From a virus: a DNA stretch of 30,346 bases. Within the stretch, counting starts at the first letter, position 1; the number at the start of each line of letters is the position of its first letter. Shown here one piece after another: positions 1-11,752 of this stretch. The stretch is from IMG/VR virus record IMGVR_UViG_3300023184_000383, positions 1 to 30,346 of that record; one strand, written 5' to 3'. The position numbers were made by a program, and so were the translations under genes. Below the pieces are notes generated by a model. It worked only from the letters and a program-made list of their open reading frames with translations, was not told the origin of the DNA and did no database searches.

Positions 1-2529
1 ACCCGAACCACCAGAGCCTCCAGAACCATTAGAACCTGGTTGTCCCTGTGATTGATCACGATTACCACCACCGCCACCGCCAGTTCCTGCGGTTCCAAAT
101 TCGGGTTTTACATTAGGTGAACCTGCTCCTGAACCGCCAGCACCACCACCACCTCGACCACCTTGACCACCGTCTCCTGGAGATTGTCCTCCGCCGCCAC
201 CGCCACCCGCAAAATACAGTGTAGTGCCTGTTAGTGTAGTTGATGAACCTATTCCACCAAGACCGCCTTTTGGTGGTGCCCCATCTGCTCCAACACCACC
301 AGCACCACCGCCACCGCCGCCAGCCCAGTTATAAGCACCAGAACCGCCGTTACTACCTTGACCTGGAGTTCCTGTACCTGCTGCTTCGGGATAACCACCA
401 CCGCCACCAGAACCACCATTTTTATTTGGTGTAGAAGTGCTATATGAACCAGCAGCACCACCACCAAATGAAGTGAAAGAAGAAAATGTTGAGTTCGAAC
501 CTCTTGTTGCTACGCCTGGTGCTGGAGATATTCCTCCAATACCTCCAGCACCAATAATAACTGAATATGATTGTCCTGGTGCTACTGGAAAACCTGTGCC
601 CGATAAGAAACCACCAGCACCACCACCGCCGCCGACTGTATGTCCACCACCACCGCCTCCACCAACAAGAACATAATCAACCGCAGTAATTCCTGGCGGT
701 GCTGTCCATTGACCTGATGCTGTGTATACGTATGTATTTACAGTAGGTTGTACCGCAGGAATAGAAATAACAACTATACCCGATTGACCAGGATTACCAT
801 CACCTAAACCAGTATCAATTCCATTACCACCATTTCCACTATTTGGTGTAGTCGCTGTTCTTGGTGCAGGTCCGGCTGTAGAACTTGCACCTTTACCACC
901 TACTGAATATGTTACAGGTGAACCAGAAAGAGGCGATGCTAATCCTGCTCCTCCAGCGGCACCCGCAGCAGGAACTGTTCCACCCGAACCTCCTACACCA
1001 CCAGCACCCCCACCGCCGCCAGCAGTATAGTTACCATTACCAACAGGAGTAACATCACCGCCATTATTACCTTGTCCTGGTGTTCCCAATCCTCCTGATG
1101 CTCCTCCAGGATAACCCGCAGCACCACCACCAGAACCACCCGATCTTCCTGCTTGTGAACCAGGATAGTTGACAGCAGCACCACCTCCACCACCAACAGC
1201 AATTAATGTACCGAATATTGAATTAGCACCATTTGATCCCATAAAAGCAGGACTAGAATCATTTACTGAACGACCATTTGCTCCACCACCACCAACGATA
1301 ACATTGATTGCAGAATTTGGACCTACTGGATAACCTGTACCTGTTAAAAAACCACCAGCACCACCACCACCACCTGCACCACCGCCACCGCCACCAATAA
1401 TCAAATAGTCTACTTGTGATACATTTTGTGGTACTATAAATTGACCTGTATTTGCGTATGTAAGAATTGCGGAAGGTGGATTAACATAGTAACGAAGAAC
1501 AACTACTCCAGAACCACCAGCACCACCCCATTGACTCCAATACAAATAATATCCACCACCGCCACCGCCACCGCCAGTGCCCGATACTCCTGGTGTTGAA
1601 TAAAATGTAGCATAACTTTTAGAACCATTTCCACCACCAAATGGAGTTCCTTGCCAAGGAGAACCATAACCACCAGTAATAGGTTGTCCAGCATATTGAT
1701 TATCATAAACTTGAGAATAACCGCCACCACCATAACCTATTCTATAAGAACCATTATCAATCGAACCTCCACCACCTCCAGCATATGCGGTATTGGAACC
1801 TGTGATTGATGAGAATATTCCTATGCCGCCATTACCTGCATATTGTCCTGCGGGGTCTGCTCGTTGACCAGCACCACCTGCACCACCGCCACCACCTGTA
1901 CCGCCACCACCAGCATATGGATTACTTCCATAGCCTTGAGAAACTCCACCCGCATAACCTTGTCCCGGTGTTCCTAAACCAGCATTATCTTGTTGAGAAC
2001 CTCCACCACCAGAACCACCTCCATATGCGCCAGTACCTGCCATACCGCCAGAACCACCACCGCCTCCACCGCCGCCAAGCGACCAATTAATTAAGTTTGT
2101 GCCTGTACTAGTATTAAATATTCCTGAGTTCGTACCATTCGAACCTCGTGCTTGAGAAACACTTCCGGCACCACCACCGCCAACTATAATTGTATATGTT
2201 GCTCCTGTTGATACGGATAGTTGCGTACCTGTTTGAAAACCACCCGCACCTGCACCACCACCATAACCATCAGATACCCCACCGCCACCGCCACCACCAA
2301 TAACAAGATAATCTACTTCTGTTACGCCAGTAGGTACTGTCCAGTTTTGTGAAGCATTAAATACTTGAACTGCCTGAAAAGAACCTGATGGCGTTTCTTG
2401 TGGCCATAAACCAGCAAGTTTAAATATTTGTGCTTCATTCAGCGAATAAATGCCTGTAGCAGCACCAGCATAACCACCAGTGGTAATATTTCTTGTACCA
2501 ATAATACCGCCGTTGAAACCTTTTGCCAT
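1..2529 (-). CDS. Glycine-rich modular tail fibre/adhesin, 3' end outside window
   Basis: Open for 843 codons from an ATG at 2529 to the window edge; I checked every codon in this frame and found no stop. The N-terminus (about residues 1-50) is not glycine-rich and carries a G-I-Y-S-L-N-E...A-G-L-W-P stretch like the attachment ends of other phage fibres. Three modules follow, starting near residues 55, 353 and 595. Each opens with a beta head (for example QNWTVPTGVTEVDYLV, GQWTAPPGITAVDYVLV), continues as poly-glycine, and closes with GGSG-V-V. The third module is nearly complete at the edge. The start overlaps the stop of the upstream 127-residue gene by one base (TAATG), so the two are probably translationally coupled. 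It is paralogous to the 1067-residue protein, with the same module order. A receptor-binding role is inferred from family and position; the exact fibre type is unknown. Confidence 0.8.
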   Translation of the reverse strand, partial: MAKGFNGGIIGTRNITTGGYAGAATGIYSLNEAQIFKLAGLWPQETPSGSFQAVQVFNASQNWTVPTGVTEVDYLVIGGGGGGGVSDGYGGGAGAGGFQTGTQLSVSTGATYTIIVGGGGAGSVSQARGSNGTNSGIFNTSTGTNLINWSLGGGGGGGGSGGMAGTGAYGGGSGGGGSQQDNAGLGTPGQGYAGGVSQGYGSNPYAGGGGTGGGGGAGGAGQRADPAGQYAGNGGIGIFSSITGSNTAYAGGGGGSIDNGSYRIGYGGGGYSQVYDNQYAGQPITGGYGSPWQGTPFGGGNGSKSYATFYSTPGVSGTGGGGGGGGYYLYWSQWGGAGGSGVVVLRYYVNPPSAILTYANTGQFIVPQNVSQVDYLIIGGGGGGAGGGGGAGGFLTGTGYPVGPNSAINVIVGGGGANGRSVNDSSPAFMGSNGANSIFGTLIAVGGGGGAAVNYPGSQAGRSGGSGGGAAGYPGGASGGLGTPGQGNNGGDVTPVGNGNYTAGGGGGAGGVGGSGGTVPAAGAAGGAGLASPLSGSPVTYSVGGKGASSTAGPAPRTATTPNSGNGGNGIDTGLGDGNPGQSGIVVISIPAVQPTVNTYVYTASGQWTAPPGITAVDYVLVGGGGGGGHTVGGGGGAGGFLSGTGFPVAPGQSYSVIIGAGGIGGISPAPGVATRGSNSTFSSFTSFGGGAAGSYSTSTPNKNGGSGGGGGYPEAAGTGTPGQGSNGGSGAYNWAGGGGGGAGGVGADGAPPKGGLGGIGSSTTLTGTTLYFAGGGGGGGQSPGDGGQGGRGGGGAGGSGAGSPNVKPEFGTAGTGGGGGGNRDQSQGQPGSNGSGGSGGSG

Positions 2530-2912
2530 TAACTTATCTCTTCAAACGATGTGATAAGATGCAGACGATTATTCGAATCTGCTTTTGCCTTGAGTTGATC
2601 ACCTTCTTCAAGATAAAGTGATTTAGAAAGAACATCTAAGGAAGATTTTGCAGGTACAGTCATTACATTAGCAAGAGCATATGTTGAGTTGCCTGTACCT
2701 GTGGATACATTTTGTGAACCAAATTTAAATAATTCTACTGATACGTTACTAGCATTTGTGCCATCAACATTCGCAATCATAATCGTATTGATTTTGAATA
2801 CTTTACCAGAGTTGACATCATTAACAATAACAGAAGATGAGGTCGTAGTAAGGTTAGCGACATTTGACTTGCCACGAATTGTAGTTACTCCGACTATATT
2901 AGGTGCTGCCAT
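2529..2912 (-). CDS. Small beta-rich virion protein, partner of the downstream adhesin
   Basis: 127 residues, no cysteine, no signal peptide or membrane segment. It shares a pattern with three other small proteins in the window (110, 112 and 112 residues): an early 'I-x-x-I-x-I-A-N' strand, a middle stretch before a 'V-P-A' turn, a late L-x-x-G-D-x-(I/L) strand, and a C-terminal '-E-I-' end. The ATG has a GGAG ribosome-binding site eleven bases upstream in the 23-base gap after the 299-residue adhesin gene. Its stop overlaps the start of the large adhesin that follows. I do not know a named family for it. An adaptor, cap or decoration protein for the adhesin is plausible from the coupling, but this is inference. 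Confidence 0.75.
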   Translation of the reverse strand: MAAPNIVGVTTIRGKSNVANLTTTSSSVIVNDVNSGKVFKINTIMIANVDGTNASNVSVELFKFGSQNVSTGTGNSTYALANVMTVPAKSSLDVLSKSLYLEEGDQLKAKADSNNRLHLITSFEEIS

Positions 2913-2935
2913 TTATTTTTTTCTCCGATAAATCT

Positions 2936-3835
2936 TTAGAATGTTAGTGTACCTGTTGAATTGAATGTGAAGTATCTATACGTACCATCCGATGAATATA
3001 ATCCTGTGGTAACTGCATTTGCTGAACCAATTGGATAACGAATAATAACTTTACCGGAACCTCCAGTACCAATATTGGGTGCTTGAGGTTGACCACCACC
3101 ACCGCCTCCAGAGTTTGTTATTCCTGATGAACCTGTGCTACCACCTGACAAATCTCCTATTGGTGCTGGCATCGAACCACCACCAGAGTTTCCATAACCA
3201 TCTGGATAGTTTGCAACACCTGCACCACCACCGCCACCATATGATGTATTTGAGCCTGAGAATGAAGAGAATATACTCAGTCCACCTTGGCCAAGTCCAT
3301 TGAGTCCTCCACCACCTCCTGCGCCACCAGCACCACCGCCACCTCCTCCACCATCAAAACCAGGTCCACTGCTGGCCGATGTAGCACCAACATAACCTTG
3401 TGCTGGTGAAACATTTGGTATGTTACCTAATCCAGCATTAGAACCATTTTTACTTCCGTTACCACCACCCGAACCACCACTCTGTCCGTAACCTAACGAT
3501 GGTGCTCCCGATCCCGTACCACCACCACCTCCACCACCAGCAGACCAGATAGATGAAACAGAATTACTTATTCCTGAATTGGAACCATTACCAGAACTTG
3601 CAGCACCACCAGCACCCACTGTTATGGTATAAGTTGTACTTGGTGTTAGAGGGTATCCTGTACCTGTACGATAACCACCACCACCTCCCCCACCACCAGC
3701 AAATCCTGCGCCACCACCACCTCCACCACCAACAATAAGATACTCGACTCCTAATGGAGGAAGATACTTACCAACTCTCCTTCCTATTCCAAATGATGAG
3801 GCACCACCATTTGCTAATGTACCTAGAATTGGCAT
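2936..3835 (-). CDS. Single-module glycine-rich fibre/adhesin
   Basis: 299 residues. A short N-terminal leader (MPILGTLANGG...) with basic residues precedes one glycine-rich module (from VEYLIVGGGG near residue 31) that closes with GSGKVIIRYP near residue 255. A final beta segment, Y-R-Y-F-T-F-N-S-T-G-T-L-T-F, ends the protein. The same ending (VIIRYP ... HYTFTGSGSITF) closes the 551-residue adhesin, so these two share a C-terminal cap that the larger multi-module protein ending at 5181 lacks. It starts one base after the stop of the 294-residue shaft protein, with an AGGAT ribosome-binding site. It is likely a small receptor-binding tip or fibre subunit. Confidence 0.75.
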   Translation of the reverse strand: MPILGTLANGGASSFGIGRRVGKYLPPLGVEYLIVGGGGGGGAGFAGGGGGGGGYRTGTGYPLTPSTTYTITVGAGGAASSGNGSNSGISNSVSSIWSAGGGGGGGTGSGAPSLGYGQSGGSGGGNGSKNGSNAGLGNIPNVSPAQGYVGATSASSGPGFDGGGGGGGAGGAGGGGGLNGLGQGGLSIFSSFSGSNTSYGGGGGAGVANYPDGYGNSGGGSMPAPIGDLSGGSTGSSGITNSGGGGGGQPQAPNIGTGGSGKVIIRYPIGSANAVTTGLYSSDGTYRYFTFNSTGTLTF

Positions 3836-3836
3836 C

Positions 3837-4721
3837 TTATCCTAGAGCAAATAAAGAGTTTGAAGCAAATACCGCATATGTGTTCGCAGCAGTTTTCAAT
3901 ACAGTGTAACCATAAATGTTTGTCTCTTGATTTGTGATCACTTGATAAATTGGTTTAGTATTACCAACATAAACAATAGAGTTTGATCCTGTGTTATTAA
4001 TCAAACCACCATCAATATAAAGATTGGCAGAATGACGATTTAATCCATGTTTCACAATTAATGCAACAGTTACAGATTGACCAGTAGTTGTTACTGAGTC
4101 AAATGTATTCTGTGTGTTGGCACGAAGATTAAATGTAATATTTGCTGTACTGTTTGCGTTAAAGTAGTAAACCACATTATTCGCAATATCAATATTAATA
4201 GTTCCATTAGGTGCAATAGCATTTATGTTTGCAGACTCTAATGCACGGGTCAACGAAATAGAAAGATTGGAAGAAAGAACATTTGATGTAATACCACCAC
4301 CAGCAAAGTTGTTAGCAGATACCGCACCTATACCAATATTATTACCTGATATTGCTTGTGTACCAATAAGATTACCTGTGATTTGTCCAGTAACAATGTT
4401 GTTACCACGAACAGAATTGGCAGCAAGTTTTGCACCAGTAACCGAACCATCAGAAGGTACAGATGTTGCTGAACCGTTACCCATATGATGAATAACAATG
4501 TTGTTTGTACCTAATGCTGGTGCTGAACCAAAAATGATTATGTCACCGTTGAGTGTATAATCTACGCCTGGTACTTTATAGACACCTGAGATGAACACTG
4601 CAATAGATGCTACAGATGCTGGAGCACGGGTAAGTTGCCCAAATACTGTAGCAGAACCTGTGCCACTAAATGTGTCTATAATGAACGGTACTGATGAAAC
4701 TTGATTGCCAATGTATGCCAT
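3837..4721 (-). CDS. Tail fibre shaft protein with 10-residue repeats and unknown C-terminal domain
   Basis: 294 residues in three parts. Residues 1-85 form a domain common at the start of phage fibres (F-S-G-x-G-S-x-T-V-F, then I-S-G-V and a Y-T-L-N-G-D-I-I-I-F turn, then G-T-N-N-I-V-I). Residues 94-153 are six tandem decapeptides of the type (V/I)-(S/T)-(G/A)-N-x-(I/L)-x-x-x-(A/G). Residues 155-294 are a non-repetitive beta-rich domain I do not recognise. Parts one and two are paralogous to the 223-residue protein at 10749-11420; part three is absent there. The ATG has an AGGAAAA ribosome-binding site. It probably forms a trimeric fibre shaft carrying its own tip. Confidence 0.75.
   Translation of the reverse strand: MAYIGNQVSSVPFIIDTFSGTGSATVFGQLTRAPASVASIAVFISGVYKVPGVDYTLNGDIIIFGSAPALGTNNIVIHHMGNGSATSVPSDGSVTGAKLAANSVRGNNIVTGQITGNLIGTQAISGNNIGIGAVSANNFAGGGITSNVLSSNLSISLTRALESANINAIAPNGTINIDIANNVVYYFNANSTANITFNLRANTQNTFDSVTTTGQSVTVALIVKHGLNRHSANLYIDGGLINNTGSNSIVYVGNTKPIYQVITNQETNIYGYTVLKTAANTYAVFASNSLFALG
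4263..4442 (-). repeat. Six tandem decapeptide repeats (shaft)
   Basis: Residues 94-153 of the 294-residue fibre protein. The repeats start at V94, V104, I114, I124, V134 and I144, an exact 10-residue period. A hydrophobic residue opens each repeat, followed by S/T/R, G/A/S, usually N, and a hydrophobic residue at position 6. This spacing is typical of beta-spiral or beta-helix shafts. Confidence 0.8.
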
Positions 4722-4732
4722 TTATTTTCCTA

Positions 4733-5146
4733 TTATTCTGGTCTTACTGGTGCATCGCCTTCTGGTTTAGGATATGCATCGTTCACCTCTTTGATCATGT
4801 TATAAAACTTTGTTCCTTTACCTGGTATCTCACTATTGTCTATTGCTTCCCAAAGGGAATTTACAAGAACTGTAATATCAGGATAGTTTGATGCACGATC
4901 TAAAAAGTATTGATGATGCTCAATAAACTTATTCTGATATTCTAACTCTGCCATAATTTCATTCTTCGTTGGCGGTTTGGTATTAGCATCATCCTCCCAA
5001 CGAGTAAACTCAAAATGTCCACCAGATGCCGACATATCGTATCGTGCTGTTGGACGTAATGCTTTGATTGCTGTATCAATGCCACAAACTAATTTATTGC
5101 TACTACCAATTAAAAAGTGTGCATATTCAATTTCTTTGTTATTCAT
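4733..5146 (-). CDS. Possible tail fibre assembly chaperone (XkdW-like)
   Basis: 137 residues, acidic and soluble, with no glycine-rich or repeat sequence, so unlike its fibre neighbours. The first half has A-I-K-A-L-R-P-T-A-R-Y-D-M, then a W-E-D, then K-P-P-T-K-N-E-I-M-A-E-L, a layout reminiscent of XkdW-type phage proteins. The second half (Y-P-D-I ... L-W-E-A-I-D ... F-Y-N-M-I-K-E-V-N-D-A-Y-P-K-P) resembles a tail common in small proteins beside phage fibre genes. The AGGAG ribosome-binding site lies seven bases before the ATG, and a late-promoter-like motif sits upstream. A chaperone or assembly role is inferred from position and composition; the family call is weak. Confidence 0.5.
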   Translation of the reverse strand: MNNKEIEYAHFLIGSSNKLVCGIDTAIKALRPTARYDMSASGGHFEFTRWEDDANTKPPTKNEIMAELEYQNKFIEHHQYFLDRASNYPDITVLVNSLWEAIDNSEIPGKGTKFYNMIKEVNDAYPKPEGDAPVRPE

Positions 5147-5184
5147 TCAATCACTCCTATAAAAAAGTTATACTCAGTATTTAT
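5147..5184 (-). promoter_or_regulatory. Candidate late promoter and strong ribosome-binding site
   Basis: This is the longest intergenic gap in the window (34 bases). On the minus strand an ATAAATA motif (5178-5184) overlaps the stop of the 1067-residue adhesin gene. It resembles the T4 late promoter core TATAAATA. A perfect AGGAG (5154-5158) sits seven bases before the ATG of the 137-residue gene. The distance from the motif to the ATG (31 bases) leaves room for a short leader. A chance match of a 7-base AT motif in AT-rich DNA is quite possible. Confidence 0.35.
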
Positions 5185-8100
5185 GTCCATGTTAGGATGA
5201 CAATTCCCGAACCACCTGCACCTGCTTGTCCTGTTGTATTGTTATTTCTTCTTGCACCACCACCGCCGCCGCCAGTATTTGGTGTTCCAGCAACTCCAGA
5301 ATTGTCAGCATCGCCACCTGCACCTCCACCTCCATTACCGCCTGTGCCTGCTCCCGAAGTAGCACCACCACCACCACCGCCAGCATAGTATGTTGGTGCT
5401 CCAGAATATGATGATAATAATCCTCCTCCACCATTTCCTCCTGGTCCTCCCGGTGATGGTGATCCTCCAACAGCATTAGCACCACCGCCGCCACCTCCGC
5501 CATAATTAGGAGAACCTTGTCCTGTACCACCAGCATTTCCTTGACCCGGTGTTCCTGCGCCACCTAAACCTGTACCGCCGCCGCCACCTCCTGAACCACC
5601 ACTCATTCCGTTAGTTGCTGGAGAAGTAGCAGCACTTGCAGCACCACCACCAATTGCAGTGAACGATGAGAAAGAAGAGTTTGTTCCATTTGAACCAACG
5701 CCGATGTAGGGTGGTGCTGGAGTACCTACGCCGGCAGCACCACCAGCACCGACTGTAATAGCATATTGTGATCCTGGTGTTACTGAAAATCCTGTGCCTG
5801 TGAGATAACCGCCAGCACCACCACCCGCACCACCACTACTACTACCAGCACCTCCACCTGCAACAACAAGATAGTTGACTGTTGCTGACTGTGCAGTAAA
5901 AGTACCTGATGCTAAAAATGTTGCTCTGTTTGGCTGTGATGCTGAATGTTTGAGTATTAGTATACCTGAGCCACCAGCACCACCTAATTGTTGTGTTGCT
6001 CCAGAATTTCCACCACCACCTCCGCCACCGCCGCCAGTGCCAGCAGTTCCATCAACTCCGACTTTACCAGAAACGCTACCTGCTCCACCACCACCTTGAC
6101 CACCAGCACCACCAGAAGTAGGAACATCGTTAGTTGAACCACCTCCACCACCACCAAAATATGTGAGTGTTCCAGTTAGTGTTGTTGATAAACCTGCACC
6201 ACCAACACCACCTGTAGTGGGTGTTCCATTACCACCTGTTGCACCCGCACCACCGCCACCACCAGAACCATAAGAACCTGATGTAGAGGCAGTGCCTCCG
6301 TTATTGCCTTGACCTGGCGTTCCTAAACCACCCGCCACAGGAGTATTGCCAGCAGCACCACCTCCAGAACCACCACCAGAACCACTTGTGGGAGAAGTTG
6401 AACCATTACCACCTCCACGACCACCACCAAGAGAAGTCAATGATGAGAATGATGAATTTGTTCCGTTGGAACCGCCAGTGCCAGATACGGTTCCACCAGC
6501 ACCAATAATGATAGGATATGTTTGTCCTGGTGCTACTGGATAACTTGTGCCCGATAGATAACCACCTGCACCACCTCCACCGCCAGACCAATATCCACCA
6601 GAACCGCCACCGCCAACTAACACATAATCAACCGCAGTAATTCCTGGCGGTGCTGTCCATTGCCCTGATGCTGTGTAGATATATGTTGTGACGGATGGTT
6701 GTGTAGTAGGAATTGAAACGATAACGATACCTGAACCGCCAGCACCTCCTAAACCATTACCGCCACCACCGCCACCACCGCCAGAACCACTATTTGGTTG
6801 AGCAGCAGTTCCATTTCCATTCGTTTGACCATAGCCACCTCGACCTGTTCCACCAACAGTATTTGGACCAGGATTATGTCCTGCGCCACCACCATCAGCA
6901 TATGCTGTGTTTGATCCAGAAATTGATGAATATAATCCTATGCCGCCCCACCCATTTCCAGGTGTTCCATTATTTCCAACAGCACCCGCACCACCACCAC
7001 CACCTCCGCCATTGCTAGGTGAACCATTACCACCATTATTTCCTTGTCCAGGTGTACCTAAACCGAAACGATTAGTAGACCATGATGAACCTGCTCCACC
7101 ACCAGAACCTCCAGATGCTCCATAAGCATCAGTACCAGTTGCTAAAGAACCAGAACCGCCACTACCTCCTCCTCTAGCAACTATTGTTCCAAATATAGAA
7201 TTTGATCCGTTACCGCCTCTAGTCCAGTTACTTGTGCCTCCAACACCACCAGCACCAACGACAACTGTAATTGCAGAATTTGAGCCTACAGGATATCCAG
7301 AACCAGCAAGATAACCACCTGCACCACCACCTCCAGCATCAGTATCAGCGCCACCACCGCCACCAGCAACGACAAGATAATCTACTTGTGATACATTTGC
7401 TGGTACGATGAATTGACCTGTGTTAGAAAATATAAAGATGCCATTTACTGATGTACTTTGTGTCCATTTGAGTACAATAACGCCTGAACCACCAGCACCA
7501 CCACCATATGATGTGCCACCCGGATCAGTATAACCGCCACCTCCACCACCGCTTCCTTGATTTATACTTGCAGAATTTCCTGTTGATGCGGCTGGTGTTG
7601 ACAATCCATTAGCAGCACCAAATAAAGCATTTCCACCACCACCATAACCGAATGGATATGCTGCTCCTGGACCATAAACACTTCCACCGCCACCGCCAGC
7701 ATAACCAGTATTAGAACCCGATATTGATGAGAATATGCCTATACCACCATTACCCGAATCATTTCCTGTAGCACCAGCACCACCAGCACCACCACCGCCA
7801 CCAGAACGATCATAAGGAGAAGAAGGACCACCATTAGGAGCACCTCGTCCACCATTATTTCCTTGACCCAGAGTTCCTAAACCACCAAGACCACCTGCGG
7901 GGTATCTACCACCACCTCCACCAGAACCACCAGACATACCATTACCAGCATCGGTACCACCTCCACCGCCACCACCAATTGTCCAAATAACTAAAGGTGT
8001 GCCACTGCTTGTGACAAATATTCCTGAGTTTGTTCCATTTGCTCCAGTTGCGCCTGGTGCAGCAGCACCTCCAGCACCACCGGAACCGATTGCGATAGTG

Positions 8101-8384
8101 TATGTTGTGCCAGGATTTACAGTAAGTCCTGTTCCTGTAATAACACCACCAGCACCTCCACCTCCACCAATACGACCACCACCGCCACCGCCGCCAGCAA
8201 GAACAAGGTACTCAACTTCAGTTATACCAGTAGGAACTGTCCATGTTTGCGATGTTAAAAATACTTGTGATACACTACGAGTTGTTGGAGCAGCAGGACC
8301 AGGTGCAGCACCACCGCCACCAGTGCCTGGCACAGTCATGCGTTTGAGTGAAACTTTGTTTAATGCTATTCTATTGAGTGCCAT
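5181..8384 (-). CDS. Four-module glycine-rich tail fibre/adhesin
   Basis: 1067 residues. A short basic leader (MALNRIALNKVSLKRMTVPG) and an alanine/proline linker precede four ~250-residue modules at about 41-308, 313-560, 566-815 and 820-1067. Each has a beta head (TWTVPTGITEVEYLV, GQFIVPANVSQVDYLV, GQWTAPPGITAVDYVL, GTFTAQSATVNYLV), a long poly-glycine body with recurrent G-T-P-G-Q-G-N-N-G-G and S-I-S-G-S-N-T-x-Y-A-x-G-G-G motifs, and a closing G-G-A-G-G-S-G-(I/V)-(V/L)-I strand. The protein stops directly after module IV. Poly-glycine bodies of this kind pack as polyglycine-II helix sandwiches in the gp38 adhesin of phage S16, so a host-receptor-binding role is likely. The start overlaps the stop of the upstream 112-residue gene (TAATG). 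Confidence 0.82.
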   Translation of the reverse strand: MALNRIALNKVSLKRMTVPGTGGGGAAPGPAAPTTRSVSQVFLTSQTWTVPTGITEVEYLVLAGGGGGGGRIGGGGGAGGVITGTGLTVNPGTTYTIAIGSGGAGGAAAPGATGANGTNSGIFVTSSGTPLVIWTIGGGGGGGTDAGNGMSGGSGGGGGRYPAGGLGGLGTLGQGNNGGRGAPNGGPSSPYDRSGGGGGAGGAGATGNDSGNGGIGIFSSISGSNTGYAGGGGGSVYGPGAAYPFGYGGGGNALFGAANGLSTPAASTGNSASINQGSGGGGGGYTDPGGTSYGGGAGGSGVIVLKWTQSTSVNGIFIFSNTGQFIVPANVSQVDYLVVAGGGGGADTDAGGGGAGGYLAGSGYPVGSNSAITVVVGAGGVGGTSNWTRGGNGSNSIFGTIVARGGGSGGSGSLATGTDAYGASGGSGGGAGSSWSTNRFGLGTPGQGNNGGNGSPSNGGGGGGGAGAVGNNGTPGNGWGGIGLYSSISGSNTAYADGGGAGHNPGPNTVGGTGRGGYGQTNGNGTAAQPNSGSGGGGGGGGNGLGGAGGSGIVIVSIPTTQPSVTTYIYTASGQWTAPPGITAVDYVLVGGGGSGGYWSGGGGGAGGYLSGTSYPVAPGQTYPIIIGAGGTVSGTGGSNGTNSSFSSLTSLGGGRGGGNGSTSPTSGSGGGSGGGAAGNTPVAGGLGTPGQGNNGGTASTSGSYGSGGGGGAGATGGNGTPTTGGVGGAGLSTTLTGTLTYFGGGGGGSTNDVPTSGGAGGQGGGGAGSVSGKVGVDGTAGTGGGGGGGGGNSGATQQLGGAGGSGILILKHSASQPNRATFLASGTFTAQSATVNYLVVAGGGAGSSSGGAGGGAGGYLTGTGFSVTPGSQYAITVGAGGAAGVGTPAPPYIGVGSNGTNSSFSSFTAIGGGAASAATSPATNGMSGGSGGGGGGTGLGGAGTPGQGNAGGTGQGSPNYGGGGGGGANAVGGSPSPGGPGGNGGGGLLSSYSGAPTYYAGGGGGGATSGAGTGGNGGGGAGGDADNSGVAGTPNTGGGGGGARRNNNTTGQAGAGGSGIVILTWT
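5184..8264 (-). repeat. Four tandem ~250-residue glycine-rich modules
   Basis: Module I spans about 7461-8264, II 6705-7448, III 5940-6689 and IV 5184-5927, with linkers of only a few residues between them. Modules I, II and III correspond in order to the three modules of the adhesin at 1-2529 (about 1470-2367, 755-1468 and 1-745). Module IV has no counterpart there within this window. Confidence 0.8.
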
Positions 8385-8722
8385 TAGTAGACTTCAGTGC
8401 CGAATGCTGAGAATGCTAATAGAGATGTATTAGCATTTACTGATATCTGTGAACCTGCGGCAAGAGTAATACCAAGTGTCAATGTAATCGCATCACGACC
8501 TGGCACATTGATACCATAAGCAAGATAGTTTCCATTAGCAATAGGAGAACCGGAAGTGTTTGCAGCAATTCTAAATGCTGCGCCATTTGCTGCGTTCTCA
8601 TCTAAGTTGGCAATAGTAATTGATGAGATGATTGCAGAGTTACCTGCTGGAACGGTATACAAGTTTGTCAGTATGTTTGCTGTCGAACTTTGTTGTCCTA
8701 ATATTTTATATGATCTTGCCAT
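8384..8722 (-). CDS. Small beta-rich virion protein, copy 2 of a paralogous pair
   Basis: 112 residues. It is a clear paralogue of the equally long protein at 10397-10735; an ungapped alignment by eye gives roughly half identical residues, with shared ILGQ, YTVP, NYLAY, NVPG-x-D, TLTLG, AGSQ-x-SV and FGTE motifs. There are no catalytic-looking residues, and the alternating hydrophobic pattern suggests a beta sandwich. The ATG follows a purine-only run (AGAAAAGAAAAA) after the 551-residue adhesin. The stop overlaps the start of the 1067-residue adhesin by one base. Each copy of this pair therefore sits directly before a glycine-rich adhesin. Function unknown; a partner or adaptor is inferred. 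Confidence 0.75.
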   Translation of the reverse strand: MARSYKILGQQSSTANILTNLYTVPAGNSAIISSITIANLDENAANGAAFRIAANTSGSPIANGNYLAYGINVPGRDAITLTLGITLAAGSQISVNANTSLLAFSAFGTEVY

Positions 8723-8734
8723 TTTTTCTTTTCT

Positions 8735-10390
8735 TTATGGATTGTAATCGAATGTAATTGAACCACTTCCAGTAAATGTATAATGAATAAATCCTGTAGG
8801 TGTAACTGACACATCCGGTGAACCTGAGTTTGATACATTACCAAACACTGCTGGATAACGGATGATGACAACACCTGAACCACCTGAACCACCTTCCGAG
8901 CCAGAATCACGACCTCTCCAATTAGGTGCGCCGGGACTACCATACGGATAACCAGGAGGCCAAACAGCACCACCACCAAGAGGTGCTGGATAGGGGGAAG
9001 GTGATAACGGACCAACGCCTGAACGGATTGTGGCAGGAAATGGAAAATATGATCCACCATTATAAGCACCGCCACCACCACCACCACGATTTCTTGATGC
9101 TCTTTTATTTTGAGGACTTTCACCAGTATCCCCACCAAAACCTATTTTTGATCCATAAGGAGGTAATGGCGCACCAGTTGGTGCAGTTCCACCATTAAAC
9201 ATCTCATCACCACCATTAAATACTGTACCTGAACCTGCTTCACCACCGCCGCCGGGTGCTGGATTATTAGATTCTTGATACGATGCACCACCGCCACCAG
9301 AAGCATATTTTAAACCAGTATATGGCCATGTATAACCACCACCACCCTCACCACCCCTCGACTCATTTGAATCATTAGGTGCTGGACGATCCCATCCACC
9401 AGCACCACCACCACCACCACGAACTCCAGGAACTAATGCATATGGTTGAGCACCTCTATCCACAGTTTCAGTTGGACCAGGTTGACCAGGAAAAGAATTA
9501 TCTTCACCAGTATCTGTACCGCTTTTACCATTTCTAACATCGTTATCAGCACCTGGTCGATACGATACGCCCCCATATCCACCCTGAACACTACCCGCAC
9601 AAAAACCAAATGGCATACTTCCTGTCCAAGCATAGAATGCGCCCTGCCCACCGCCAGTAGCAGTTTGACCTGTACCTGCTCCAGTTGCTTCCGAGTTCGG
9701 TACAACCGAACCACCACCACCTCCACCATACGCAGTAATAGGTCCAAAATCGGATTGAGAACCTCTATTACCTGTAGCATCAGTGCGACCACCACCACCA
9801 CTACCAACTGTAACACCAATAGGAGTGTTATAAGCAATACCCGAAACGCCTGTGACAGTACGAGGACCTAAAGAAAATGCTGGAGGTGATGCTGTGGGTT
9901 CAGCAGTTGCAGTTGGAGCAGTTGGTGAAGTTAATACTGTAGATACATAATAATTACCTGTAGCACCAGCAGTACCACTTCGTTGCTCAACAACACGTAC
10001 AGGCATATTTCCAGAAATACCAGGTATATTAATTACTGAATCTGGTTTTATGTAACCCGATCCAACTGACGTAACTTGCATCTCACAGTGACCTGTGCCG
10101 GGTGAACGTTGATAATAAAAAGAAGCAGTTGCAGAAAATCCTGCATATAATGGATTAGAAGTAAATCCCATTGTGCCGATAACAACACCACCTCCACCAC
10201 CACCGCCACCCCCACCCGAACCGCCAGCACCGCCACCACCAACAACAAGGTACTGTAAACTAAATTCTGGTTTACCGGAACCTTGGATTACACCAATAAC
10301 GGATTTTCGTTTGGTTAAACTCTGAGCAACTTTATCGTTACTTGTGAATCGATAAGAATTGATGGTTCGTGTAGCGGAACGTGTTGTCAT
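8735..10390 (-). CDS. Single-module glycine-rich fibre/adhesin with an inserted domain
   Basis: 551 residues. A basic, serine/threonine-rich leader (1-45) is followed by the module head QYLVVGGGGAGG and poly-glycine. At about residues 74-182 a non-glycine-rich insert interrupts the module. It contains V-T-S-V-G-S-G-Y and looks like the G-x-G-Y beta units of the baseplate proteins in this window. The module resumes at NTPIGVTVGSGGGG, runs on as glycine-rich sequence with aromatic, proline and charged loops, and closes at GSGVVIIRYP near residue 506. The cap HYTFTGSGSITF is shared with the 299-residue adhesin. The start lies six bases after the upstream 112-residue gene without an obvious Shine-Dalgarno, so coupling to that gene is likely. 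Confidence 0.78.
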   Translation of the reverse strand: MTTRSATRTINSYRFTSNDKVAQSLTKRKSVIGVIQGSGKPEFSLQYLVVGGGGAGGSGGGGGGGGGGVVIGTMGFTSNPLYAGFSATASFYYQRSPGTGHCEMQVTSVGSGYIKPDSVINIPGISGNMPVRVVEQRSGTAGATGNYYVSTVLTSPTAPTATAEPTASPPAFSLGPRTVTGVSGIAYNTPIGVTVGSGGGGRTDATGNRGSQSDFGPITAYGGGGGGSVVPNSEATGAGTGQTATGGGQGAFYAWTGSMPFGFCAGSVQGGYGGVSYRPGADNDVRNGKSGTDTGEDNSFPGQPGPTETVDRGAQPYALVPGVRGGGGGAGGWDRPAPNDSNESRGGEGGGGYTWPYTGLKYASGGGGASYQESNNPAPGGGGEAGSGTVFNGGDEMFNGGTAPTGAPLPPYGSKIGFGGDTGESPQNKRASRNRGGGGGGAYNGGSYFPFPATIRSGVGPLSPSPYPAPLGGGAVWPPGYPYGSPGAPNWRGRDSGSEGGSGGSGVVIIRYPAVFGNVSNSGSPDVSVTPTGFIHYTFTGSGSITFDYNP

Positions 10391-10748: not shown

Positions 10749-11420
10749 TTACATTCCACCGAGTAAAAACATGTCATCGAAATTTCTTGCTTCCATGCTC
10801 AAATTATTTGCACTAACAGAATTGAGTCCCAATGTATTACCTGTTACCGATTGAGTTTGGAATAGATTCCCACTCAAAGAACCCACAACAATATTGTTTG
10901 CTCCAATTGAATTTAGAGTTAAATTGTTACCTGAAATTGCATTAGCCGAAATTAAATTACCAGTTATTGCACCAATAGTAATTTGATTTGCGGAAATAGA
11001 AGTAACGCCAATATTATTACCAGATATAATTCCATGATTTGCAAGTTTGTCACCAGTGATTGCGTTTGCTGCTATCTTTGAATTGACTACAGCATTCGGT
11101 GCTAATGCAGTTGCAGTTACAGAATTTGCTAATAGTTGTGATGGTGAAATCTGATTATAGGCAATCGTTGTACCTGTACGATAAATCACAACAATATTGT
11201 TTGTACCAAGACCTGGTGGAGTTGTGAAGTTGAGAATTCCATCAGTGACAGTATAAGCATCACGTGGAGTTTGTAAAACACCACTTACAGCAACTTCAAG
11301 ATAGTTTGGATCATCAATATCTCTTGTTAAAGTAAATACAGTACAAGCACCAGAACCGCTGAATTTTTCAACGCCAACTGCAAAAGTATTTAATTCAGGT
11401 GAATTGCCAAGATAGGACAT
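10749..11420 (-). CDS. Tail fibre shaft protein with 10-residue repeats
   Basis: 223 residues. Residues 1-85 are the same fibre N-terminal domain as in the 294-residue protein (F-S-G-S-G-A-C-T-V-F-T-L, then V-S-G-V, then Y-T-V-T-D-G-I-L-N-F, then G-T-N-N-I-V-V-I-Y). From residue 91 to about 210 the protein is a run of twelve decapeptides, with one extra residue at 131. The last thirteen residues (A-R-N-F-D-D-M-F-L-L-G-G-M) break the repeat and may form a cap or a docking end. There is no separate tip domain, unlike the 294-residue paralogue, so another protein may supply the tip. The start overlaps the stop of the 110-residue gene (TAATG). Confidence 0.75.
   Translation of the reverse strand: MSYLGNSPELNTFAVGVEKFSGSGACTVFTLTRDIDDPNYLEVAVSGVLQTPRDAYTVTDGILNFTTPPGLGTNNIVVIYRTGTTIAYNQISPSQLLANSVTATALAPNAVVNSKIAANAITGDKLANHGIISGNNIGVTSISANQITIGAITGNLISANAISGNNLTLNSIGANNIVVGSLSGNLFQTQSVTGNTLGLNSVSANNLSMEARNFDDMFLLGGM
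10791..11150 (-). repeat. Twelve tandem decapeptide repeats (shaft)
   Basis: Residues 91-210 of the 223-residue protein. Repeats start at I91, V101, V111, I121, then after a one-residue shift at I132, I142, I152, I162, I172, L182, V192 and V202. The consensus is (I/V)-(S/T)-(G/A)-N-x-(I/L)-x-x-x-(S/A), strongest from residue 132 onward. Confidence 0.85.
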
Positions 11421-11752
11421 TAGGTGATCTCCAGAATCGAAGTGATAACATCAGCAGAGGATGCTACAGATGTATTTACCTGTATAAAATCACCCGCTTC
11501 TAATACCAACTTCTGATCTCCACCAATAGGTACTAATGCACCACCAGGAGCAATCGTTGCATCTTTAACTAAAAATACATTACCAGTAATTGTTCCACCG
11601 CTTATCATGACACTAGCAGTAATGGGTGTGGTAATAATATTAGCAATCGACATGCCAATGATTGTTGCTGAAACACCCACACCAGCAGCATAAGCATTCT
11701 GTGCGGTAACTCCAGCAGCCTTGAGAGTGTTATTCTTAAACGAATTAGCCAT
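11420..11752 (-). CDS. Small beta-rich virion protein
   Basis: 110 residues. It is the most divergent member of the small beta family in this window. The shared features are an early I-I-G-M-S-I-A-N strand, a central V-F-L-V-K-D-A-T-I-A-P-G-G-A-L-V-P turn, L-V-L-E-A-G-D-F-I-Q-V, and the ending I-T-S-I-L-E-I-T. It precedes a shaft protein rather than a glycine-rich adhesin. An AGAGGA ribosome-binding site lies four bases before the ATG, and an ATAAATA motif sits further upstream. No function is known; a structural connector is the most likely role. Confidence 0.7.
   Translation of the reverse strand: MANSFKNNTLKAAGVTAQNAYAAGVGVSATIIGMSIANIITTPITASVMISGGTITGNVFLVKDATIAPGGALVPIGGDQKLVLEAGDFIQVNTSVASSADVITSILEIT

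Follow-up and report, generated by a model that had tools for sequence, protein, structure and literature searches.

Closest described systems

The proteins discussed here are four glycine-rich adhesins, P1, P3, P6 and P8, encoded at one end of a 30,346-base stretch of a virus record (IMG/VR record IMGVR_UViG_3300023184_000383; the whole stretch is called the window below). The closest described relative of the module from which they are built is the tail fibre gp24 of cyanophage Pam3 (PDB 7YPX, 7YFW), which has the same TNF-like base with a distal glycine-rich domain and gave the best match in both structural and PDB sequence comparisons. In the available part of its description (PMC9608196), the glycine-rich domain of the Pam3 fibre consists of twelve glycine-rich motifs in a four-layer lattice, its stem conserved and its tip variable; a helical bundle at the N-terminus is mainly responsible for trimerisation of the fibre, which is described as similar to ALK and to gp38 of phage S16. 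Pam3 gp24 carries one module per chain behind an N-terminal helical trimerisation domain, whereas the chains of this family carry one to four modules and include permuted forms.

The same fold is found in the tail tip of a different kind of phage, Bxb1 (PDB 9D93, chains Qa/Qb); these chains are probably gp33, the tail wing brush domain of the portion of PMC13243192 at hand. The gp38 adhesins of S16 and PP01 share with the window proteins the glycine tracts, the variable loops and, putatively here, receptor binding; they differ in having a beta-helix base and in capping a trimeric gp37 fibre, according to the part of PMC12892980 available. The glycine-rich ligand-binding domain of ALK/LTK, an animal receptor, has a TNF-like plus glycine-rich fold that resembles the module more weakly, with an alignment that takes in about half of the module. 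Among sequence families, eight of the nine modules match PF21722 and all four proteins match phrog_2295; neither entry states a function, and no mention of PF21722 was found in the literature searched. Among the papers listed from that literature, whose coverage lacks most subscription journals, there was likewise no account of glycine-rich modules in tandem or permuted form. What is added here are the permuted forms, the recurring arrays of two to four modules, the positional lineages with module exchange, and the near-constant junctions. We consider it very probable that the four proteins bind receptors, are of modular, multi-head build and belong to the tail of a Kyanoviridae-like phage.

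The four adhesins and their modules

The adhesins and their parts are as follows.

1..2529, minus strand: adhesin P1, 843 aa, three canonical modules, cut by the window edge
1483-2373, 754-1470 and about 1-738, minus strand: P1 modules 1, 2 and 3 (Pfam)
2936..3835, minus strand: adhesin P3, 299 aa, one module of predicted circularly permuted form
2942..3001, minus strand: C-terminal strands of P3, residues 279-298, matching the canonical first head strands (strand-A profile, 14.7 bits)
5181..8384, minus strand: adhesin P6, 1067 aa, four canonical modules
7455-8273, 6702-7439, 5940-6689 and 5184-5930, minus strand: P6 modules 1 to 4 (Pfam)
8735..10390, minus strand: adhesin P8, 551 aa, a single divergent module of predicted permuted form, with an insert (profile match with controls)
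8747..8791, minus strand: C-terminal strand of P8, equivalent to that of P3 (strand-A profile, 6.9 bits)
9830..10168, minus strand: insert in the P8 head, about residues 75-187, about 110 residues (module alignment; also present in the homologues L022 and L068)

An earlier note, made from the sequence alone, had counted three or more, one, four and one modules in these genes, at least nine copies of one module in all. Both counts hold up. The Pfam family PF21722 (Gly_rich_2) finds three stretches in P1, one in P3 and four in P6 (E 3e-49, 1e-11 and 1e-80; 168, 46 and 271 bits, against a curated cut-off of 24.3 bits), and none in P8, which gives no match even at E 1. The eight clear modules score z 10-44 against one another over composition-preserving shuffles in local alignment, and P8 only z 2-5. 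The ninth copy comes from profile comparison: P8 with its two homologues (L022, 75% identity; L068, 58%) matches the permuted-family profile with a probability of 98.9% and E 4e-17, the body, closing strand and tail being aligned. Other settings gave 98.4%, but with just 34 head columns aligned, and eight column-shuffled controls and one reversed control stayed at or below 4.6%. There are thus nine copies, eight clear and one divergent. The single shared plan proposed in the note stands as kinship of the nine copies, but not as plain serial repetition throughout, since P3 and P8 read as circular permutants. Glycine makes up 34, 35, 36 and 24% of P1, P3, P6 and P8, respectively. By eye, the P8 insert has a GSGY-type motif like that in the gp6-like and phrog_438 proteins of the window.

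The third module of P1 lacks its closing strand because the open reading frame (ORF) runs off the low end of the window. A complete relative in L022 (837 aa, with an N-terminus like that of P1) has three modules and a stop codon directly after the closing strand, so three is likely the full count for P1. The N-terminus of P1, MAKGFNGGIIG, is a putative anchor.

Fold of the module

Module 3 of P6 was folded with AF2 from an alignment that combined modules of the window with those of viral contigs (70 in all). The isolated module gave a compact, confident model, with a predicted local distance difference test score (pLDDT) of 95.1 and a predicted template modelling score (pTM) of 0.92. Among the best 50 of 139 Foldseek matches, the Pam3 fibre stands at E 3e-7, Bxb1 at E 2e-6 and ALK/LTK at E 0.05 at best. 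VIA structural alignment (model range 1-254) gives Z 16.9 and a root-mean-square deviation (rmsd) of 2.4 over 182 residues for the Pam3 fibre, Z 15.7 and an rmsd of 3.2 over 182 residues for the Bxb1 tail protein, and Z 9.3 to 6.6 for ALK/LTK, the highest of these over 126 residues. With Pam3 and Bxb1 as the best matches and ALK/LTK after them, the base is predicted to be a TNF-like sandwich and not a gp38-type beta-helix. S16 gp38 (6F45) is not among the best 50 of 139 Foldseek matches or the VIA matches listed, an absence that excludes nothing. In the model, a TNF-like beta-sandwich forms the base and glycine tracts form the body, an architecture already known from receptor-binding tips of phages. 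The earlier note had proposed a fold like the polyglycine-II sandwich of S16 gp38; the model supports a compact module, with Pam3 and Bxb1 in place of gp38 as the nearest solved structures.

In BFVD, 249 models match at E <= 0.001, and most of the best 50 of these are named glycine-rich domain-containing protein. Among the BFVD matches listed, the same fold is also predicted in algal viruses (of Micromonas and Bathycoccus) and in a protein of the haloarchaeal virus HF2.

At the sequence level, a profile of the 70 modules finds the Pam3 fibre in the PDB at a whole-protein E of 0.002, with single stretches at E 0.23 and 16 and a bias larger than the score; a profile of eight modules found one chance match only. 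Across 170 modules, 82 of 250 reference positions conserve one residue in at least 80% of the sequences, and 66 of these 82 are glycine, while 112 of the 250 are less than 50% conserved. Judged by this alignment, the module is a glycine frame with variable segments.

Predicted circular permutation of P3 and P8

Canonical modules have the strand pair YxYTASGQWTAP first and the YLVVGGG strand after it; P3 and P8 start at the YLVVGGG strand and have a similar strand pair at the C-terminus. The wider comparison used a permuted set of single-module ORFs with 22-70 residues past the closing motif, picked blind to the sequence of the tail, and a strand-A profile made from 104 internal strand-A segments with a threshold of 8 bits. 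The threshold is exceeded by 22 of 36 permuted tails, against one of 360 shuffled tails and one of 360 body pieces. At the other end of the chain the pattern is reversed, with 0 of 36 N-termini of permuted proteins and 68 of 74 canonical N-termini above it. The lowest-scoring permuted tails reach just 1.6 and 1.9 bits.

The models agree with this arrangement. Strands 286-291 and 295-298 of the P3 model have the same 6-3-4 spacing as strands 4-9 and 13-16 of the canonical model. In structural alignment the canonical model spans residues 75-276 of Pam3 and 39-267 of Bxb1, and the P3 model 94-280 and 58-267, with its last 25-31 residues unaligned. Permuted heads can also be recognised by eye in arrays: L119 1768-4365 is a three-module permuted array, and L019 6603-8246 a mixed canonical and permuted array with one strand A per head. 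From the sequences and, for P3, the model we conclude that P3 and P8 are circular permutants in which the C-terminus holds the first head strand: canonical modules would start with head strand A, and P3 and P8 would start after it and appear to supply it C-terminally. The C-terminal strand of P3 could instead be a donor strand that completes a neighbouring head; this is disfavoured by the pLDDT of about 90 for these strands in the monomer model and by the single strand A per head in the mixed array.

Arrays, lineages and module exchange

The earlier note had suggested a profile search for tandem copies in other phages, and arrays of two to four modules do recur in viral contigs and named phages. 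A first scan of viral contigs with poly-glycine patterns found at least 11 loci and a single-module query 54; the array sample comprises 142 viral-contig loci and the window, with 144 non-redundant ORFs matching the module profile, 128 of them complete. It was collected with queries from the window and is therefore biased toward the window's kin. Among the 61 tandem proteins past the coverage filter, 34 have three modules, 20 have two and seven have four (P1 counted as three). A scan of genome_contigs found three loci in metagenome-assembled genomes. PF21722 is present in 18 of 20 viral records picked from the module loci and in nine of ten named phage records; pairs within a single reading frame occur in the cultured Synechococcus phage Bellamy and in phage DSL-LC04, so tandem heads are not new to sequence collections. 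A tblastn search of phages with the whole of P6 gave no matches, probably owing to the low-complexity filter.

The positions in an array are separate lineages. Within the window, modules 1, 2 and 3 of P1 are nearest to modules 1, 2 and 3 of P6, respectively, which indicates that the two arrays share an ancestor. In a FastTree phylogeny of 130 modules, taken from 41 three- or four-module proteins and with support below 80% at 58 of 127 inner branches, a module's nearest relative in another gene sits at the same position in 103 of 130 cases; in six cases its nearest relative of all is a module of its own gene.

Whole modules have also been swapped between adhesin genes. All nine gene pairs that share a module at least 75% identical also hold a same-position module less than 60% identical. 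Eight of these pairs share at the same position; in the ninth, within L107, module 3 of the gene at 4701-7118 is 76% identical to module 1 of its neighbour at 7122-9584, a sign of exchange within one genome. For P6, the best matches by part are L142 over residues 57-357, L051 over 57-300, L102 over 294-631 and L020 over 531-1068, which places the borders of exchange near module borders. Module 1 of P6 is nearest to genes bearing a P1-type N-terminus, so N-termini travel separately.

In three- and four-module chains the junctions are near-fixed in length and the module bodies vary. Among three-module proteins, 32 of 34 have a first junction of 36-38 residues and 30 of 31 a second one of 33-37, with module bodies of 201-283 residues. 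Of all 124 junctions, 117 measure 30-40 residues; in two-module chains, four of 22 are longer than 40.

Genomic setting

The main genes of the window lie on the minus strand. Those with PHROG matches to baseplate wedge, hub and PAAR families come first, the gene of a 2071-aa phrog_358 protein is next, and the fibre cluster follows at 12146-1, also on the minus strand. The gp6-like protein of the window is 36-40% identical to its relatives (25 records listed), and those listed include the Kyanoviridae Melnitz, Mosig, HTVC008M and Synechococcus phages. In relatives a very long gene stands 3' of the gp8-like gene; it is labelled VrlC in HTVC008M and Mosig and hypothetical in Melnitz. Annotated tail-fibre genes and module proteins lie downstream of this long post-baseplate gene in Melnitz, where several genes past it are annotated as tail fibre and the stretch closes at neck genes. 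The cluster of the window thus stands at the expected place for fibre genes, the long genes being likened by place only. The four proteins are best read as belonging to a marine, Kyanoviridae-like, contractile-tailed phage. A megablast search of phages with window positions 1-25000 gave no matches.

The neighbours of the adhesin genes are the following.

2529..2912, minus strand: phrog_1276 protein, with a one-base overlap (TAATG) with the start codon of P1
3837..4721, minus strand: ordinary fibre protein between P6 and P3 (phrog_18673 and phrog_892 among its weaker matches)
4733..5146, minus strand: conserved 137-aa protein after P6, candidate fibre assembly factor
8384..8722, minus strand: phrog_1276 protein, with a one-base overlap (TAATG) with the start codon of P6
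10397..10735, minus strand: phrog_1276 protein directly upstream of P8
10749-11420: fibre gene with a phrog_1276 gene upstream
11420..11752, minus strand: phrog_1276 protein upstream of the fibre gene at 10749-11420

The four phrog_1276 copies are diverged, about 110-127 aa long, and each lies upstream of a fibre or adhesin gene, directly so for three of the four adhesins. Leaving aside module genes that directly follow another one, 104 remain across the loci, and 62 of these adjoin a phrog_1276 gene; over whole loci there are 65 such adjacencies, whereas 1000 label shuffles gave 21.0 +/- 3.7 and never more than 34. Pontimonas phage phiPsal1 has a relative that is labelled putative virion structural protein and matches one of HTVC010P. 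At a guess, the phrog_1276 protein may be an adaptor. The 137-aa protein has 44 relatives among the ORFs of other loci (redundancy kept); its best E against PDB sequences is 0.15, with no sequence match to Pam3 gp25, and its candidacy as an assembly factor is a guess from its position.

The G+C content per kilobase is 34-40% in the baseplate genes and 47-50% in the four adhesin genes (1-10390), the higher values being due to glycine codons. GGT is the main glycine codon in both sets of genes, and GGG is rare.

Receptor binding and other readings

By analogy with relatives, the four proteins would bind receptors. Three PF21722 genes neighbour one another in Synechococcus phage Sf-FR1, and two of them carry the label tail fiber protein. 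In the available parts of the respective papers, host range in hafunaviruses correlates with their glycine-rich adhesins (PMC8651126), the loops of PP01 gp38 contact OmpC (PMC12892980), and polyglycine-rich brush domains are discussed as antireceptors (PMC13243795). In the arrangement we propose, a short N-terminal segment, probably an anchor, would be followed by one to four modules, in each of which the glycine tracts would run out from and back to the TNF-like base as a packed lattice. Between the tracts, the variable segments would be turned towards the host and would bind structures on its surface. An array would thus present several heads per chain, each position with its own lineage, and recombination near the conserved junctions would swap whole modules between adhesin genes, so that one head can change at a time.

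Several points weigh against this reading. Virion location, the N-terminal anchor, loop exposure, receptor binding and the benefit of several heads are all things we infer, and no mass-spectrometry evidence for the proteins was found in the literature. The sequence similarity between the module and Pam3 is weak, and the N-terminus of P3, where Pam3 has its helical trimeriser, is modelled without a helix, though mostly at pLDDT below 50; the P3 model as a whole is less certain (pLDDT 79.9, pTM 0.82). The window is a fragment of a genome, and PF21722 is patchy among Kyanoviridae, with none in the whole S-PM2 record and one match each in HTVC008M and Mosig (in Mosig our own profile finds no module in the stretch searched, and PF21722 one in the whole record). 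The mosaicism rests on nine pairs, three of which involve P6 and one of which is between positions in one genome, and the sample had no close unswapped pair as a baseline.

It is worth weighing other readings of the same proteins. TNF-like and C1q-like sandwiches occur in decoration proteins, and the adhesins might decorate the virion or form its neck or whiskers, keeping it close to surfaces or polysaccharide but not determining its host range. The several copies per genome, and the place of three of the four behind phrog_1276 with its putative virion structural relative in phiPsal1, would suit such a role; we nevertheless think it improbable, given the tail-fibre labels and gene place in relatives and the host-range evidence for them. 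Somewhat less probable still is that they are monomeric tip adhesins of the gp38 type, of the same family, each capping a separate trimeric fibre as in S16 and PP01. The plan of glycine tracts and variable loops is the same, the gp38 loops of PP01 contact OmpC, and the available parts of two reports relate S16 gp38 to Pam3 gp24 by DALI over 52 residues (PMC9608196) and to the Bxb1 domains by eye (PMC13243192). However, the best structural matches are Pam3, Bxb1 and ALK/LTK, and the modelled module matches a TNF-like base and not the beta-helix described for PP01 gp38 in the portion of PMC12892980 available. The 24-36% glycine and the PDB profile search, with its large composition bias, could even suggest low-complexity proteins with a similarity of composition only and no defined fold, but the shuffle controls, the model at pLDDT 95, the conserved order of motifs and the near-fixed junctions leave this hardly credible.

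Within the multi-head receptor-binding reading, a three-module chain could be a single-chain pseudo-trimer, with its three TNF-like modules around a three-fold axis. One polypeptide would then replace the three identical subunits of Pam3, each module would evolve its own loops, and the tip would be asymmetric, with faces replaceable singly by recombination and a fourth module as an added head. Three modules being the commonest class, the separate positional lineages and the near-fixed junctions are consistent with this; the two- and four-module chains and the four two-module junctions longer than 40 residues count against it, and on balance we regard it as unlikely.

Among phage host-recognition proteins, glycine-rich tips of this kind are a class that is widespread but poorly annotated; in Bellamy (all four), Melnitz and HTVC008M, the module genes looked up are labelled hypothetical. 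The module is a unit that could be produced and tested alone. Position-specific heads, a permuted form and the exchange of modules would together make a scheme by which marine phages may change their attachment step by step.

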